NCBI GenBank assembly: GCA_014360495.1
Contig: JACIXR010000003.1
Coordinates: forward strand, 1 to 64,000
Source: a bacterium
Lineage (GTDB): Bacteria > Armatimonadota > JACIXR01
DNA length: 64,000 bases
Reading direction: 5' to 3'
Within the stretch, counting starts at the first letter, position 1. Each line of letters starts with the position of its first letter. The translations under genes were made by a program, and so were the position numbers. The notes below the pieces were generated by a model. The model was given only the letters and a program-made list of their open reading frames with translations. It searched no databases and was not told the origin of the DNA. Shown piece after piece: positions 1 to 46,315 of the stretch.

Positions 1-391
1 CTAAACATGATACAGCTGCCCCCAAGTTAAGAAGCTTATAGATAAAAGGTGGTATTGGGATACGCCCATAAGTATGAACGCTAGAGGCTGGGTTATTAGC
101 TACATAACGATATCCCTCCGAGGCATGAAGTTTCCCAAAATTTACGAGATCTTTCACGCCAAACCTTGCAATCATAGGATTATACCATCTCTGCGTTAAG
201 AGATACATTCCTGCATCTCCATCTCCATAATACCCGAGCTCGCCAAGAACGGGATTAGTGAGGGAAGTCAATCTTCCCAGAGCATCATAGCTATAACTTG
301 TCTGACCACCAAAATAGTCGGTCATTTGGGTTTTCCTACCAGCGCTATCCTAAACTTTATACCTGCCATTTGTCAAGACTCTTGGTGTCAT
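1..391 (-). pseudogene. RHS-repeat protein C-terminal fragment (orphan tip, partial at window edge)
   Basis: Read on the minus strand this stretch encodes YD-type RHS core sequence (SYSYDALGRLTSL, then a RYVANNP-type motif) and runs off the window start. Positions 160-350 match 1524-1714, inside the intact RHS gene, at an offset of 1364 bases with few differences, so it is a duplicated core-plus-tip. A TAG stop lies in frame at 350-352, where the other copy has a sense codon, and no start is visible, so this copy is probably not translated as it stands. Beyond the shared core the tip diverges from the neighbouring copy. That fits an orphan RHS tip cassette of the kind that recombines with a full gene (known for RHS/CDI loci; inference here). 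Confidence 0.75.
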
Positions 392-1053: not shown

Positions 1054-2229
1054 TCACAGCACCATCCCTTGATAGTTAAAACACTTCCCCGGTTTACGAA
1101 CTTTAGGAGGTCGTGGTGGCATAGGCACCACAATCGGTTTTGGGGAAGGTTTCACGGGTTTAATTAGTATCTCACCAAACTTTGCTAAGAACCAGACAGC
1201 ACAAGCAAAACAGGGTCCAGCTTTTACAGGGTCTTTCTTGAGGCATTTAAAAAATTCTTTTATACTCTCTGGTATATCCAGAAGATCACCGAGTTCCTCT
1301 TTCAAACAATGCTTGATGCAGTCTATTCGATGGAATATAGCACGCCGGCATCCTATTATGCAACCGGCAATAATGCCTAGCCCTTTCAAGTCTATTATGC
1401 CCCCGCATACTATGCAGGCTACAGCACCTATGCTGATTGTACCTTCAGGGTCAACCTGTGAAACAGGGTTGCTCAAGGCATAATTGTAGAAATTTAAATC
1501 CTCTGGGCGCGGGTCCCTCATGACAAACCTTCCAATCATAGGATTATACCATCTTTGAGTCAAAAGATACATTTCTGCATCTCCATCGCCATAATACCCG
1601 AGCTCGCCAAGAACGGGATTAGTGAGGGAAGTCAATCTTCCCAGAGCATCATAGCTATAACTTGTCTGACCGCCAAAATAGTCGGTCATTTGCACTCGCC
1701 TTCCCGCGCTATCATAAGTATAAGATATATATCTTCCGTTTGGCAAGGTCTTTCTCGTCAATCTTCCCGCCGAGTCGTATTGATATGTTATCGTGTTTCC
1801 CGCCCAAGTGATTGTGTAGTTTGGAGGGGTTCCCGTCCAGGTTAAATCGTATTCCGATGTCATCCTTCCCACTGCATCGTAGTTATAGCCCACCCCCGTT
1901 CCGTTATCGTAGAGCTTATGCATCAACCTTCCTACCGAATCGTAGAAGAAATATGTCTTCCATCCCCTTCCGTCGGTTTTGACCTTCAATTTCCCATCCG
2001 CCCAGTACTCATAGGATTCTGAGGTTCCATCGGCGTAGGAGATTTGGATGAGCCTATTGAGGGAATCGTAGGTATAGTTCGTTGCATTGCCATTGGCATC
2101 AATGACCTTCGTCAGATTGCCATTGGCATCAATGACCTTCGTCAGATTGCCATTGGCATCGTATTGATACTGGGTTATATTGTTCAAGGAATCCCTCACT
2201 TGGACCAACCTGCCTTGAAAACCATACAA
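1054..2229 (-). CDS. Short RHS/YD-repeat protein with variable cysteine-rich C-terminus
   Basis: A 391-residue protein. Residues 1-210 carry YD repeats (YQYDANGN, YTYDSLNRL, YSYDALGRL). Then comes the conserved RHS boundary RWYNPMIGRF...RDP and NYALSNPVSQVDPEG at about 225-263. The last ~125 residues form a variable tail with CxxC pairs and a hydrophobic stretch, ending in a proline-rich segment. RHS proteins are normally 1000 residues or more, so this one is short or 5'-truncated. The TTG start at 2229 has no ribosome site. A good AAGGAGG-ATG at 2264 is in another frame and closes after 22 codons, so the 5' end may be frame-broken. A 30-base tandem repeat inside it encodes DANGNLTKVI. Confidence 0.75.
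   Translation of the reverse strand: MYGFQGRLVQVRDSLNNITQYQYDANGNLTKVIDANGNLTKVIDANGNATNYTYDSLNRLIQISYADGTSESYEYWADGKLKVKTDGRGWKTYFFYDSVGRLMHKLYDNGTGVGYNYDAVGRMTSEYDLTWTGTPPNYTITWAGNTITYQYDSAGRLTRKTLPNGRYISYTYDSAGRRVQMTDYFGGQTSYSYDALGRLTSLTNPVLGELGYYGDGDAEMYLLTQRWYNPMIGRFVMRDPRPEDLNFYNYALSNPVSQVDPEGTISIGAVACIVCGGIIDLKGLGIIAGCIIGCRRAIFHRIDCIKHCLKEELGDLLDIPESIKEFFKCLKKDPVKAGPCFACAVWFLAKFGEILIKPVKPSPKPIVVPMPPRPPKVRKPGKCFNYQGMVL
2086..2160 (-). repeat. 30-base tandem repeat (2.5 copies) in RHS gene
   Basis: Identical 30-base units at 2086-2115 and 2116-2145 are followed by a half unit to 2160. Each encodes ten residues (DANGNLTKVI) of a YD repeat in frame, so copy-number change would leave the protein in frame. 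Confidence 0.9.
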
Positions 2230-2342
2230 ATGATATAATAATTTTGCCTATCTGTCAATATCATCTCGCCTCCTTTTGAAATGATTCCATTCATTGTATT
2301 CCATATATATATGTGTCTATTTTTGCGAATTTTGCTCGCTCA

Positions 2343-2960
2343 TTATTTCAAAAATTTGCGGAGCTGTCTTTTCACCTCGCAAAATCTTCTTCTAACCGTT
2401 CCCTCTGGGCATTGGAGGAAGTTCGCTATCTCCTTCCATAGATATCCCTGCGAACGATATAGGAAAAGCTCCCTCAAATCCTTGGGAAGTAGGGAGATAG
2501 CCCCCCTCAAGCTCTCCCTTTCATCCCACAAATCCTCTCCATCTTCCTCATCATCTCCATATTCATCCATAAACCCTCCATAAACCACATTCCTTACCCT
2601 TATAATTTTCTTCCTAATCCTCTTTCCTATAGCATAGATATATCTTCCCAAACTTCCTTCTCCCTTGTATTTCTCTATGCACTTGTAAAGCTCCCACTCT
2701 ATCTCCATCTCAAAATCCTCCCTATCCTCCGTAATCGCTCCATCCCCACTCAATAGCCTCTTCACTATTCCCCTTATTATCCTGAAACATCTATTATGGA
2801 TGTAATCCCAACCTTCCTTCTTCCCAAACCTTTCTATTAACCATTTTATGCAATGGTAATCCCATTTCCCCTCCTCCTTCCCCTCAAGCTCTTTCGCAAG
2901 CTCACCCGCTAAATCATCGCTCAAATCGTATTTCTCTTTGAGAAAATCATAAGCCCTCAT
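2343..2960 (-). CDS. RNA polymerase sigma factor, ECF-like
   Basis: A 205-residue sigma-70-family protein. Residues 85-135 look like a region-2 core (EDFEMEIEWELYKCIEKYKGE...GRYIYAIGKRIRK). Residues 155-205 form a region-4 helix-turn-helix (LPKDLRELFLYRSQGY, WKEIANFLQCPEGTVRRR) that would contact the -35 element. An extra helical N-terminus of about 60 residues and an acidic linker (about 130-145) separate it from standard ECF factors. The ATG at 2960 overlaps the end of the DsbD-like reading frame as ATGA, so it is the last gene of a coupled three-gene operon. No anti-sigma factor is recognised nearby. Confidence 0.85.
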   Translation of the reverse strand: MRAYDFLKEKYDLSDDLAGELAKELEGKEEGKWDYHCIKWLIERFGKKEGWDYIHNRCFRIIRGIVKRLLSGDGAITEDREDFEMEIEWELYKCIEKYKGEGSLGRYIYAIGKRIRKKIIRVRNVVYGGFMDEYGDDEEDGEDLWDERESLRGAISLLPKDLRELFLYRSQGYLWKEIANFLQCPEGTVRRRFCEVKRQLRKFLK

Positions 2961-3801
2961 AGAAATCCCTCCACCGTCCTAAAGAGAAATAAGAGAAGGG
3001 CTCTTGGACGGAGATAGCTTTCTGTCCAAATATAGACCAAGGTGGGGAAGTAGACCTGTCCCGTGCAGAAGAGCTCAACAAATGACACGAAAGCTCCCGC
3101 TAAAAAAAGAAAAGGATTGAGGAGCTCTGCCTCATCCTATTTAAAATTGGAAAGAGATAGCCGTCCGCTTTGCAGATTAATGGATGGCGGAGGGTGACTA
3201 AAAGGAAAAGGAGCATCAAGACAGCCATCAGGGGATTGAAGATGCTGGAGAGGAGGGAAATCGCATATATTCCCTTTACAATCTGGAGCAGTCCCATTCC
3301 CAGAAGGGCATAGGCGATGAAGGAGCCGAGTATATAGGATGAGCCAAGTGAGAGGATTCTCTTTCTTGATGCGGAAGCTAAGAGGGAAAAGAGGAGGGCG
3401 ATTATTGAGAATGCACAAGGGTCAATTCCGTCAAGAAAACCAGCCGAGAGAACAGCGAGGATGGAGAGGGAGGGAAGTGGTGGCTTTGCCACAGATATGG
3501 GAGGGGCTCTCTCCTTTTCCTTAAGGATTTCGGGAAGCCTCGCCTTTATATCCCTCAGGGTAGTTAGGCAATGATTTGAGATGAATAGGGCGAGCGTTCC
3601 TCCCCATTTATCCTCTGGGATTTTGTAAGCCTTGTAGAATTGGAGGAGCTTTCCTATGTTTGGGGGATTGGAGAGGTCGTATTTTAGAATTTTTATCTCT
3701 TTATTATTTAATTTGGAGAGGAATCTCAGAGCTTTTTGGCAGTCGTTGCAAGTTGGGCTGTAAAAGATGTGGATTGTGATTGTTAAGATGAGGATTTTCA
3801 T
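2957..3801 (-). pseudogene. Thioredoxin-like/CcdA-DsbD-like membrane protein, frame broken at a 7-T run
   Basis: Residues 1-100 resemble a thioredoxin/glutaredoxin fold with a CNDC redox pair (about residues 18-21). Then come CcdA/DsbD-type membrane helices with the GFLDGIDPCAFS motif (about 124-135). The frame stops with TAG at 3100-3102, directly after a run of seven T on the minus strand (3102-3108). Adding one T continues the protein through AGAFVSFVELFCTGQVYFP, a second DsbD/CcdA signature, to a TGA at 2957-2959 that overlaps the sigma factor start as ATGA. The restored product is 281 residues. The break is therefore an indel error, a phase-variable tract or a slippage site. As written the product has 233 residues and loses the last helices. 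It begins inside the end of the gene before it (ATGA at 3798-3801). Confidence 0.8.
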
Positions 3802-4628
3802 TTCACCCTTGCCCCCAGGATTATTATGTTTGGGTAGTTTCCCATATAGTTCTTAGCTACGATTTGTTTGCCATCGTAGAGAATGAGATATACCACATCG
3901 CCAATACCGACATTCCTTTTGCCAAAAAGGCTTACCGCTTTCCTATCTCCTGAAAGTATAAGATAGCCTGTTCCGAGATAGGAATCAGCATCCCTTCTTT
4001 CCCTTGCCCTTTGAGGATTTCTTCCCTCTTTATCGTTTATGAAGCTGACTATTAAGGGTCTTCCTGAATCCATTTCCCTCTTATAGAAATCAAATGCTTT
4101 GTCCTTTCCCTCCGATGAGAATAATTCCCTCACCTCTAAATTCCTGCCCTTATATTTTGCGAAGCCTTCCAAACCTTGCTTTATATCGTGGATGAGGGGC
4201 TTTCCGGGAAGATTGCAAAGGCATTTCTCTATGAAGACATTCAGGGAAGCTATGAAGGCTTTCTCTGGTTCGTTTCCCTTGAAGCCCAGCTTAGCCATCA
4301 TGATGGCGGAGGCGGTGGCGTGGCTGTTGAGGAAGAAGGAGAAGCGAGGAAAATCCTTTATTTTTGCGATTCCCTCAAGCGAGGGGAGGCTGAACTCTTC
4401 AATGCTCCCGTTCCCATCGCAGATTAAATAGCCTGTTTCCCTTTTATTTGAGAGGATGGGATATTTTAGGAGGGAGGATTTTACTTTCTCTGGCTTGCCT
4501 AAATATGTGTCTTTAGATGCGAGGTTCAGGGATTTTAGGGTCTGGAGGAAATCGGGAAGACTTGCTCCATAGAGGAACAATAGTCCTACGAGAGAGAGAA
4601 TGTAGTCCTTCAAAAACAACCTACCCAT
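3798..4628 (-). CDS. Putative secreted or membrane-anchored protein, possibly C39-peptidase-like fold
   Basis: About 276 residues with a hydrophobic N-terminal segment (IL-SLVGLLFLYG) that could be a signal or anchor. I chose the ATG at 4628 because AGGGTG precedes it by six bases; an ATG at 4649 would sit almost on the predicted transcription start. SHATASAIMMAKLGF near residue 102, followed later by a GRPLIVSF strand and GTGYLILSG, recalls the layout of C39-like papain-fold peptidases. The expected catalytic Cys and His are not evident, so it would be inactive if it belongs there. It is the first gene of the coupled operon with the thioredoxin/DsbD-like and sigma-factor genes. Function unknown. 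Confidence 0.6.
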   Translation of the reverse strand: MGRLFLKDYILSLVGLLFLYGASLPDFLQTLKSLNLASKDTYLGKPEKVKSSLLKYPILSNKRETGYLICDGNGSIEEFSLPSLEGIAKIKDFPRFSFFLNSHATASAIMMAKLGFKGNEPEKAFIASLNVFIEKCLCNLPGKPLIHDIKQGLEGFAKYKGRNLEVRELFSSEGKDKAFDFYKREMDSGRPLIVSFINDKEGRNPQRARERRDADSYLGTGYLILSGDRKAVSLFGKRNVGIGDVVYLILYDGKQIVAKNYMGNYPNIIILGARVK

Positions 4629-4645
4629 CGCTTTCACCCTTTTTA

Positions 4646-4674
4646 ACATTTTATATTATTTTGAAAAAGTATGC
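4646..4674 (-). promoter_or_regulatory. Candidate promoter for the sigma-factor operon
   Basis: On the minus strand TTGCAT is followed after 15 bases by TATAAA, about 20 bases upstream of the chosen ATG at 4628. The spacing is shorter than ideal, so support is modest. Confidence 0.35.
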
Positions 4675-44287: not shown

Positions 44288-45349
44288 ATGGAAAAAAGGA
44301 GACTGGGAAACACTGATATGGAAGTAACGATAGTTAGCTTCGGAGGAATACCCATAATCACGAGAGATTATGAGCTGTCCGTGAAAACTGTTAGAAGAGC
44401 TTACGAATTGGGGATTAACTTTTACGACACCGCTCGTGCCTATAACACGAGCGAGGAGAAAATAGGCGATGCTCTAAAGGATGTTCGGGATAAGGTTTTC
44501 TACGCCACCAAAACTCACCTTCGCACCAAGCAAGAGGCGGAGAGACATATACAGGAAAGCCTGAAAAATCTTCGCACCTCCTATATTGACCTCTATCAAA
44601 TCCATAGCGTGGATGACATTCATACCCTTGATAGAGTGATGTCTAAGGACGGTGCTCTTCCCGCATTAGAGGAAGCACAAAGAAAAGGATATATAAGGTA
44701 CATAGGAATAACTGGGCATAGGGCAGAGGTTCTCATAGAGGCGATAAATCGTTATCCTTTTGCAACGATTATGTCTCCCCTGAATTTCCTTGAGCAAAGT
44801 CATGCTGCCAACCTCCTCCCCCTTTGCAGGGAAAGGAATATCGGTTTTATAGTTATGAAGCCATTTGCTGGAGGCTCCTTGGTAACGGGTGATAAGGATG
44901 TCCAGGCGCTCGTAGGGGCGAAAAGCTCCGCAGAGATGGCAATGCTCTCCGTGAAATTTGCACTTTCCTTCCCTGGGGTTTCCTGCGTGATTCCCGGGCT
45001 TGGAAATCCTCAAGAGGTTGAGGAAGCAGTCAGAGCTGGAGAGGAATTCGGAGCTTTAAGGGAAGAAGAAAAGAAAATTTTTGAGAGGTTGAAGTCAATC
45101 CTCGTTGAACCATTCTGCCGTGGCTGTGGCTACTGCCTGCCTTGTCCTCAGAATATAGATATACCCTCAATCTTAAAGGCTCTACTTTACGCTGAGCGGT
45201 TTAATCTTATGGAAAGGGCAAAGAATATGTACGCTCAGCAAGCAGTCAAAGCCGATTCATGTGTTGAATGCGGAGTATGTGAGGAACGTTGTCCCTATAA
45301 ACTCCCTATCAGGGAAATGCTTAAATCCGCAAGGTCGCTTCTTCCGTAA
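44288..45349 (+). CDS. Aldo/keto reductase with C-terminal 4Fe-4S ferredoxin-like domain
   Basis: 353 residues. Residues 1-270 are an aldo/keto reductase barrel (INFYDTARAYNTSEEKIG, FYATKTHLR, LYQIHSVDD, GITGHRAE). After that come CRGCGYCLPCPQNIDIP (about 278-294) and SCVECGVCEERCPYKLPI (about 324-341). The second motif is a classical 4Fe-4S site (C-x2-C-x2-C-x3-CP); the first is a looser version. Such fusions are common in anaerobes and may pass electrons between a flavin-free barrel and Fe-S partners. AAAGGAGGT before ATG. Substrate unknown. Confidence 0.9.
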   Translation: MEKRRLGNTDMEVTIVSFGGIPIITRDYELSVKTVRRAYELGINFYDTARAYNTSEEKIGDALKDVRDKVFYATKTHLRTKQEAERHIQESLKNLRTSYIDLYQIHSVDDIHTLDRVMSKDGALPALEEAQRKGYIRYIGITGHRAEVLIEAINRYPFATIMSPLNFLEQSHAANLLPLCRERNIGFIVMKPFAGGSLVTGDKDVQALVGAKSSAEMAMLSVKFALSFPGVSCVIPGLGNPQEVEEAVRAGEEFGALREEEKKIFERLKSILVEPFCRGCGYCLPCPQNIDIPSILKALLYAERFNLMERAKNMYAQQAVKADSCVECGVCEERCPYKLPIREMLKSARSLLP

Positions 45350-45438
45350 AATTAATAATATTGAAAAGCACCGTCTACAGTATGTCTGGTCCCAAGAAAA
45401 GTTCCATACATTTGGGAATGATATGATTTATTTTGGAA

Positions 45439-45724
45439 ATGCCTACGCGTTTTATCACAGTTTTTGAAGATGATGGTTTAGGAAATGTTCTCAAGCTCAT
45501 CTGGACTGTGGATGTCCAAAAAGCGGAAGAGTTCAAACAAACTTATAATCCAAGCTGTGATATTATATTAATACAAATCAATTGGGAGTAGAAAGCACCG
45601 CTTGAACTTCTTGCCCACGACCCTCAAACGAAAAAAAATTTCAATCCACTGGCAAAAATCTGACATAAAGTTTAACCCATATAAAAGATGGCTTGAATTA
45701 TGGGAGGAAGACAATGAGACATAG
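45439..45724 (+). pseudogene. Decayed reading frame upstream of methyltransferase remnant (possible partner gene)
   Basis: An ATG at 45439 opens a coherent 50-residue stretch (ITVFEDDGLGNVLKLIW, KAEEFKQTYNPSCDII) that stops at TAG 45589-45591. Read through the stop, the frame continues as APLELLAHDPQTKK. After an 8-A run near 45630 another frame continues as SDIKFNPYKRWLELWEED to TAG 45722-45724, overlapping the methyltransferase start. That pattern suggests one gene broken by a stop and an indel. Given its place ahead of a DNA methyltransferase remnant, a restriction-type partner is possible but unproven. 45350-45438 shows nothing definite. Confidence 0.4.
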
Positions 45725-46315
45725 TAGGAGGAAAAGAACCAAGACAAGCCCTTTTGGCTCACCTGGTAGGATAAATCACGATTCCACTCCTTTCTATTCA
45801 AGTAGGCTATATGAAGGACTTCCTAAAGAAGAAAAAATCACATATGTAGAAAATCCTATTCCACCAAATCTTTTGGACCAGATTTTCTTTAAAACAAGTG
45901 AGAACATGTCTGGCTGTCAGCAAAAAATCCCACCTTAAGAGATATCCACGAATATATCCTCATCTTTTCTAAGGGTACGTTCACGCGAAAGACACCTACA
46001 AATAGGAAGAGCACTAATGCAAGGGAAGAATTTTTGGAGTTTACTAAGAGCGTTTGGAGATTTCCTGCTGAACCAGCAGGGAAAATTGGACACCCTGCTC
46101 CCTTTCCCATAGAGCTTCCCTATAGATTGATTCAACTCTACACCTTTGAGGGCGAGATTATCTTAGACCCCTTTATGGGGAGCGGTCAAACAGCTATAGC
46201 AGCTTTAAAGAGCGGTAGGCACTTCGTCGGTTACGAGATAGAGGAGGAATATGTAAGGCTGGCTGAGAGAAGGATTAGAGAGTTCTTGGCTAAGCAAAAA
46301 CCAGCCCTATTCTAA
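45714..46315 (+). pseudogene. DNA methyltransferase (N4/N6, beta-type), internally deleted
   Basis: ATG 45714 follows GGAGGAAG. The first 64 codons (FGSPGRINHDSTPFYSSR, VENPIPPNLLDQIFF, SENM) look like the start of a beta-class DNA methyltransferase. At about 45905-45915 the sequence jumps to WLSAKNPTLRDIHEYILIF in another frame, then FTKSVWRFPAEPAGKIG and the SAM-binding DPFMGSGQTAIAAL (about 46167-46208), and ends at 46315. Of the usual order (IV, then I at the C-terminus), the catalytic (S/D)PPY motif and roughly a hundred residues are missing, and the frame is lost at the joint. Non-functional. Confidence 0.75.

Follow-up and report, generated by a model that had tools for sequence, protein, structure and literature searches.

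The locus described here resembles a gene in ordinary decay more than an on/off switch. Our preferred explanation, to which we assign a probability of roughly 0.78, is that a dispensable gene for a thioredoxin and CcdA/DsbD-like protein is eroding and lost one T (T8 to T7) by replication slippage. A first-pass annotation had proposed phase variation, ribosomal or transcriptional slippage, or an assembly error; its recognition of one gene broken at a T run stands, while its list of causes omitted the best-supported one, ordinary gene decay. The homopolymer frame break could be sorted out without reads from what was observed directly, namely an intact relative, two lesions of which one was hidden, past constraint on both halves of the gene, and contig-end overlaps showing a short-read assembly. 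The window, that is to say the whole stretch of DNA analysed, comprises 64 kb at the start of a 269-kb contig, in a genome of 2.55 Mb on 18 contigs.

Genes on the minus strand follow one another in the order 283-aa protein (4649-3798), broken gene (from 3801), ECF-type sigma factor (2960-2343) and Rhs/YD-repeat gene (2229-1054). The upstream neighbour (3798..4649), intact and belonging to no Pfam family, overlaps the start of the broken gene and was recognized as conserved by comparison with two loci of a related genome, MAG-56, to both of which it is 61-65% identical with a dN/dS of 0.23-0.24. The upstream fragment of the broken gene (3100..3801, minus strand, 233 aa), defined by its ORF, profile matches and alignment with relatives, consists of an N-terminal thioredoxin/glutaredoxin-like domain with a CxxC motif followed by TM1-TM3 of a CcdA/DsbD-like membrane domain carrying a DGIDPCAF motif. 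Its C-terminus reads ...SSSILFFF, with TAG placed immediately after the seven-T run at 3102..3108 (A7 on the plus strand). The downstream fragment (2957..3109, minus strand, 50 aa) lies in another frame and translates as LFLAGAFVSFVELFCTGQVYFPTLVYIWTESYLRPRALLLFLFRTVEGFL-stop; it holds TM4 with a second motif, VELFCTGQVYFPT, then a short tail up to TGA, and a profile of its relatives matches it at E 1.1e-16. This TGA (2957-2959) and the ATG of the sigma factor (2960) overlap as ATGA. The sigma factor itself (2343..2960, minus strand, 205 aa) is of the sigma-70 family, ECF type, and is intact (TIGR02937, E 9.7e-13, above the cut-off).

Among the collections searched, a close relative of the gene is present in only one other species, MAG-56 (JACIXQ01) of the same genus, at two loci, L013 and L014. 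Inspection of L013 reveals a continuous 339-aa ORF that carries both halves without a T run and does not stop at the window's break. The sequence at the tract site is CTCTTTTTCCTCACC, whose in-frame length corresponds to eight T in the window, so that the window's T run is one base short; L013 has CTTTTTCCTC where the window has the T run, and L014 is deleted there. The annotated break at seven T, with the frame restored by one T, therefore agrees with the relative, as does the reading of the other frame through the second motif to a stop overlapping the sigma-factor start: the end of the L013 ORF overlaps its own sigma factor in the same ATGA arrangement.

To judge from the codons that follow the tract, both halves belonged to a single coding sequence through most of the period after the lineages parted, until recently. 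With the frame restored, 28 of these 32 codons specify the same residue as L013, and the 29 nucleotide differences between the two are distributed as 6, 1 and 22 over codon positions 1, 2 and 3. When the same 29 differences were placed at random in 20,000 trials, identical residues averaged 14.5 and reached a maximum of 23. The 5' part of the broken gene gives a dN/dS of about 0.12 against the relative, where dS is near saturation and the ratio rough; dS near or at saturation makes all dN/dS ratios given here rough, and the codon-position test is the firmer of the two. The good conservation of the 3' codons past the break reflects either a recent break or the low power of such a test for relaxed constraint.

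The intact relative also has protein features that the window copy can be measured against. In a model of the L013 protein, made with a ten-row alignment and scoring a mean pLDDT of 77, a thioredoxin-like domain is accompanied by six long helices spanning residues 122-149, 154-185, 189-218, 237-268, 276-300 and 303-338. C137 and C254, which occupy nearly invariant alignment columns, lie in TM1 and TM4 of the model and form a paired-cysteine arrangement; both sites are encoded in the window, but in different frames. This recalls CcdA, whose six helices form two inverted repeats and whose active cysteines sit on TM1 and TM4 (PMC7329351). With carriers of the CcdA/DsbD type, L013 shares a cysteine motif in TM1, another in TM4, a six-helix domain and an adjoining thioredoxin-like domain. 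It differs in that the thioredoxin-like domain is N-terminal and on the same chain, and in that the DsbD_TM match falls under the curated cut-off: the window's 233-aa fragment scores 17.5 bits (E 0.0026) against a cut-off of 27.1, its Glutaredoxin match (E 0.0095) is likewise under the Pfam cut-off, and a Pfam DsbD_TM search of the L013 protein returned no match. In a fold search of the PDB with the intact protein, hits were confined to the thioredoxin-like domain and none reached E <= 0.001, and a sequence search of solved structures gave weak thioredoxin and unrelated matches only. The broken gene is one for a membrane protein with a thioredoxin domain and a CcdA/DsbD-like part that probably moves electrons. 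The family is a thioredoxin-like and CcdA-like fusion, little described, that overlaps translationally with a sigma factor ahead of Rhs or other secreted-protein genes.

A second lesion accompanies the frameshift, and neither is found in the intact L013. Alignment of the window with L013 shows 150 bp missing near the 3' end, where YIWTESYLRPRALLLFLF is joined directly to RTVEGFL (junction at 2978..2998, minus strand); the flanks are rich in T and C, which leaves the exact breakpoint ambiguous. The loss amounts to 50 codons and, by the helix positions of the L013 model, to most of TM5 and TM6. Because this region is kept in all eight longer relatives compared (L013 and seven more distant ones from the same phylum), it represents a deletion in the window rather than an insertion in L013. 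The extended protein of the first-pass annotation thus continues past the break as described, yet it is not full length, being 50 codons short of L013 in the TM5-TM6 region, a loss that had been missed. Three helices are encoded in the first frame of the window copy and four with the frame restored, short of the six of the carriers: out of frame past TM3 and with the DNA for TM5-TM6 gone, the gene would yield on frame restoration a four-helix protein, not a complete carrier.

Apart from L013, other copies in the genus have fared no better, and the fusion family appears to have been lost repeatedly. In L014, the other MAG-56 locus, 185 bp have been deleted independently, beginning at the same pyrimidine tract in the alignment; TM4-TM5 are gone, and in the shifted frame the ORF continues into the sigma factor. 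In a third genome of the genus (G001), homology and family-profile searches found no copy of the gene, and in the window's own genome no second intact copy was found elsewhere by protein search, Pfam DsbD_TM or family profile. The gene is best regarded as dispensable, given the deletion or absence of other copies in the genus; together, the second lesion, the lesions of the paralogue, the absence from the third genome and the truncated Rhs neighbour argue for gene loss. That neighbour (1054..2229, minus strand; RHS_repeat, E 2.1e-44) is a remnant: alignment with L013 shows about 2.1 kb to be missing from the 5' part.

The following course of events is consistent with these observations. One base would have been lost by replication slippage in the T tract (T8 to T7), shifting the frame such that translation ends after TM3; the gene has also lost the 150 bp for TM5-TM6, whether before or after the frameshift. 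Loss of function of a gene that already was, or now became, dispensable would be the likely outcome. The sigma factor behind it can probably still start translation on its own, because its gene is undamaged and comes with a ribosome-binding site of its own: a GGAGGG Shine-Dalgarno-like site lies 6 nt upstream, with a predicted duplex of -9.8 kcal/mol versus -6.4 in L013 and L014. From this site the sigma factor would continue to be translated despite the broken gene ahead of it. Two observations count against decay. The 3' fragment carries no further decay beyond the two lesions, such that the frameshift must be recent or a product must still be made at some level; and the 150-bp deletion preserves the reading frame (chance 1 in 3), so that for a while a shortened protein may have been tolerated. 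A limit on the reading as decay is the breadth of the comparison, in that the gene is found in a single species besides the window's own among the searched collections.

We weighed several rival explanations against erosion of the gene. An assembly or sequencing error, with a genome that truly has eight T, would agree with the deduced ancestral length and with the constraint on the 3' fragment, but the assembly itself makes it improbable. At six pairs of contig ends, exactly 125 bp are identical, in the same outward orientation. In de Bruijn graph assembly, nodes overlap by k-1 (PMC5368935), and fixed 125-bp overlaps, left where repeats stay unresolved, mark a short-read assembly of this kind. 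As one instance, window positions 1-125 match the end of contig 9 base for base inside Rhs-related sequence, and the window begins at a repeat junction. Short reads seldom confuse T7 with T8, and a homopolymer miscount is accordingly unlikely; the 150-bp deletion would in any case still stand. Slippage of RNA polymerase or of the ribosome at T7-TAG, which would restore the frame in part of the products and supply a small amount of extended protein, is somewhat less improbable, though we still consider it unlikely. E. coli RNA polymerase slips on T runs of at least seven, and in T7 reporters insertion brought back about 5% of in-frame expression (PMC6260861). The codon constraint kept in the 3' fragment is also as expected, and UUU ahead of UAG could re-pair after a -1 slip. 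Seven T is, however, the shortest run for which slippage of E. coli RNA polymerase is reported (PMC6260861) and lies at the lower limit of efficiency; the tract is missing in L013 and deleted in L014, RNA folding downstream of the tract is ordinary (z -0.31 to -0.63) with no stimulatory structure standing out, and the product would be without TM5-TM6. Programmed frameshifting in particular would involve a conserved break and slippery tract, and L013 reads through in a single ORF that has no such tract. Homopolymer-frameshifted genes in Blochmannia are otherwise intact, and slippage has been proposed to correct them (PMC3017870); the window gene shares with them a one-base loss in poly-T within a gene otherwise under past constraint, and differs in its shorter tract of seven, its second independent deletion and its genome of ~45% GC versus that of an AT-rich endosymbiont. 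A trace of extended product (about 5% read-through) is possible, as for any such tract, and would be an incidental, four-helix one.

The switch raised by the first-pass annotation is not supported. In it, T7 (off) and T8 (on) would interconvert by replication slippage and so switch a redox protein, possibly affecting the sigma factor behind. The break is indeed a one-base step within a homopolymer, as in the phase-variable loci of Neisseria meningitidis, where a single-base step likewise changes the reading frame and tracts of at least eight are predominantly variable (PMC5084427). The window tract, in contrast, is only seven long, is known in one length, and is not conserved as a phase-variable repeat would be, being missing in L013 and deleted in L014; its in-frame state is not full length, since the on state would still be without TM5-TM6. 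The window contains many tracts of this length (11 runs of seven T and 2 of eight, none longer), and 330 of 5,000 codon-order shuffles of the broken ORF (6.6%) contain a T run of at least seven. Neighbouring genes have decayed too, related loci have deletions instead, and no recoding signal stands out, all of which render phase variation highly improbable. A truncated 233-aa protein, with a thioredoxin-like domain and three helices, could alternatively be a functional new form, in keeping with the intact 5' ORF at its dN/dS of about 0.12 and with the homology of the L014 copy, which likewise ends after TM3. Such a form would be without the second conserved cysteine motif (TM4) needed for CcdA-type transfer (PMC7329351), and the measured constraint mostly predates the break; we regard it as improbable, slightly more so than an assembly error. 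We give equally little credence as to phase variation to the notion of T7-TAG as a leaky translational brake, by which mostly the three-helix thioredoxin-domain protein would be made with a few percent extended to the sigma start; if it held, slippage would set both the form of the redox protein and its coupling to the sigma factor.

The two MAG-56 loci (L013:2378-4320 and L014:5150-6905) share ~95% identity over the stretch between the upstream gene and about sigma codon 40, the L014 deletion excepted. Past that point there is a sharp divergence of the sigma bodies and of the genes downstream, a pattern suggestive of one module copied ahead of different sigma factors. Positions 5962-7440 of L014 form a single 492-aa ORF in which the thioredoxin-like domain and three helices are joined to a complete sigma factor via the 185-bp deletion; this could encode a sigma factor tethered to the membrane, or the gene could be decaying while translation of the sigma factor begins at an ATG of its own. 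On the 3' side of the diverged sigma factor, L014:7516-10329 holds a cysteine-rich secreted-looking peptide, a 328-aa protein of no Pfam family, and a protein with Peptidase_C39 and DUF1573.

In the window's genome, the junction between sigma and Rhs genes, with the sigma gene internally deleted, recurs at three other places. Four dispersed units of an Rhs fragment and a sigma-gene tail are 91-97% identical (window 2161-2433 and 2724-2815; C3:189605-189813; C9:129279-129579; C11:55706-56026), and the three outside the window share the internal sigma deletion (residues about 80-177). Farther along, window positions 45349-46315 contain the remnant of a DNA methyltransferase; a 93-aa piece at 46034-46315 matches N6_N4_Mtase (E 1.9e-25), and in the preceding stretch stops interrupt each of the three forward frames.
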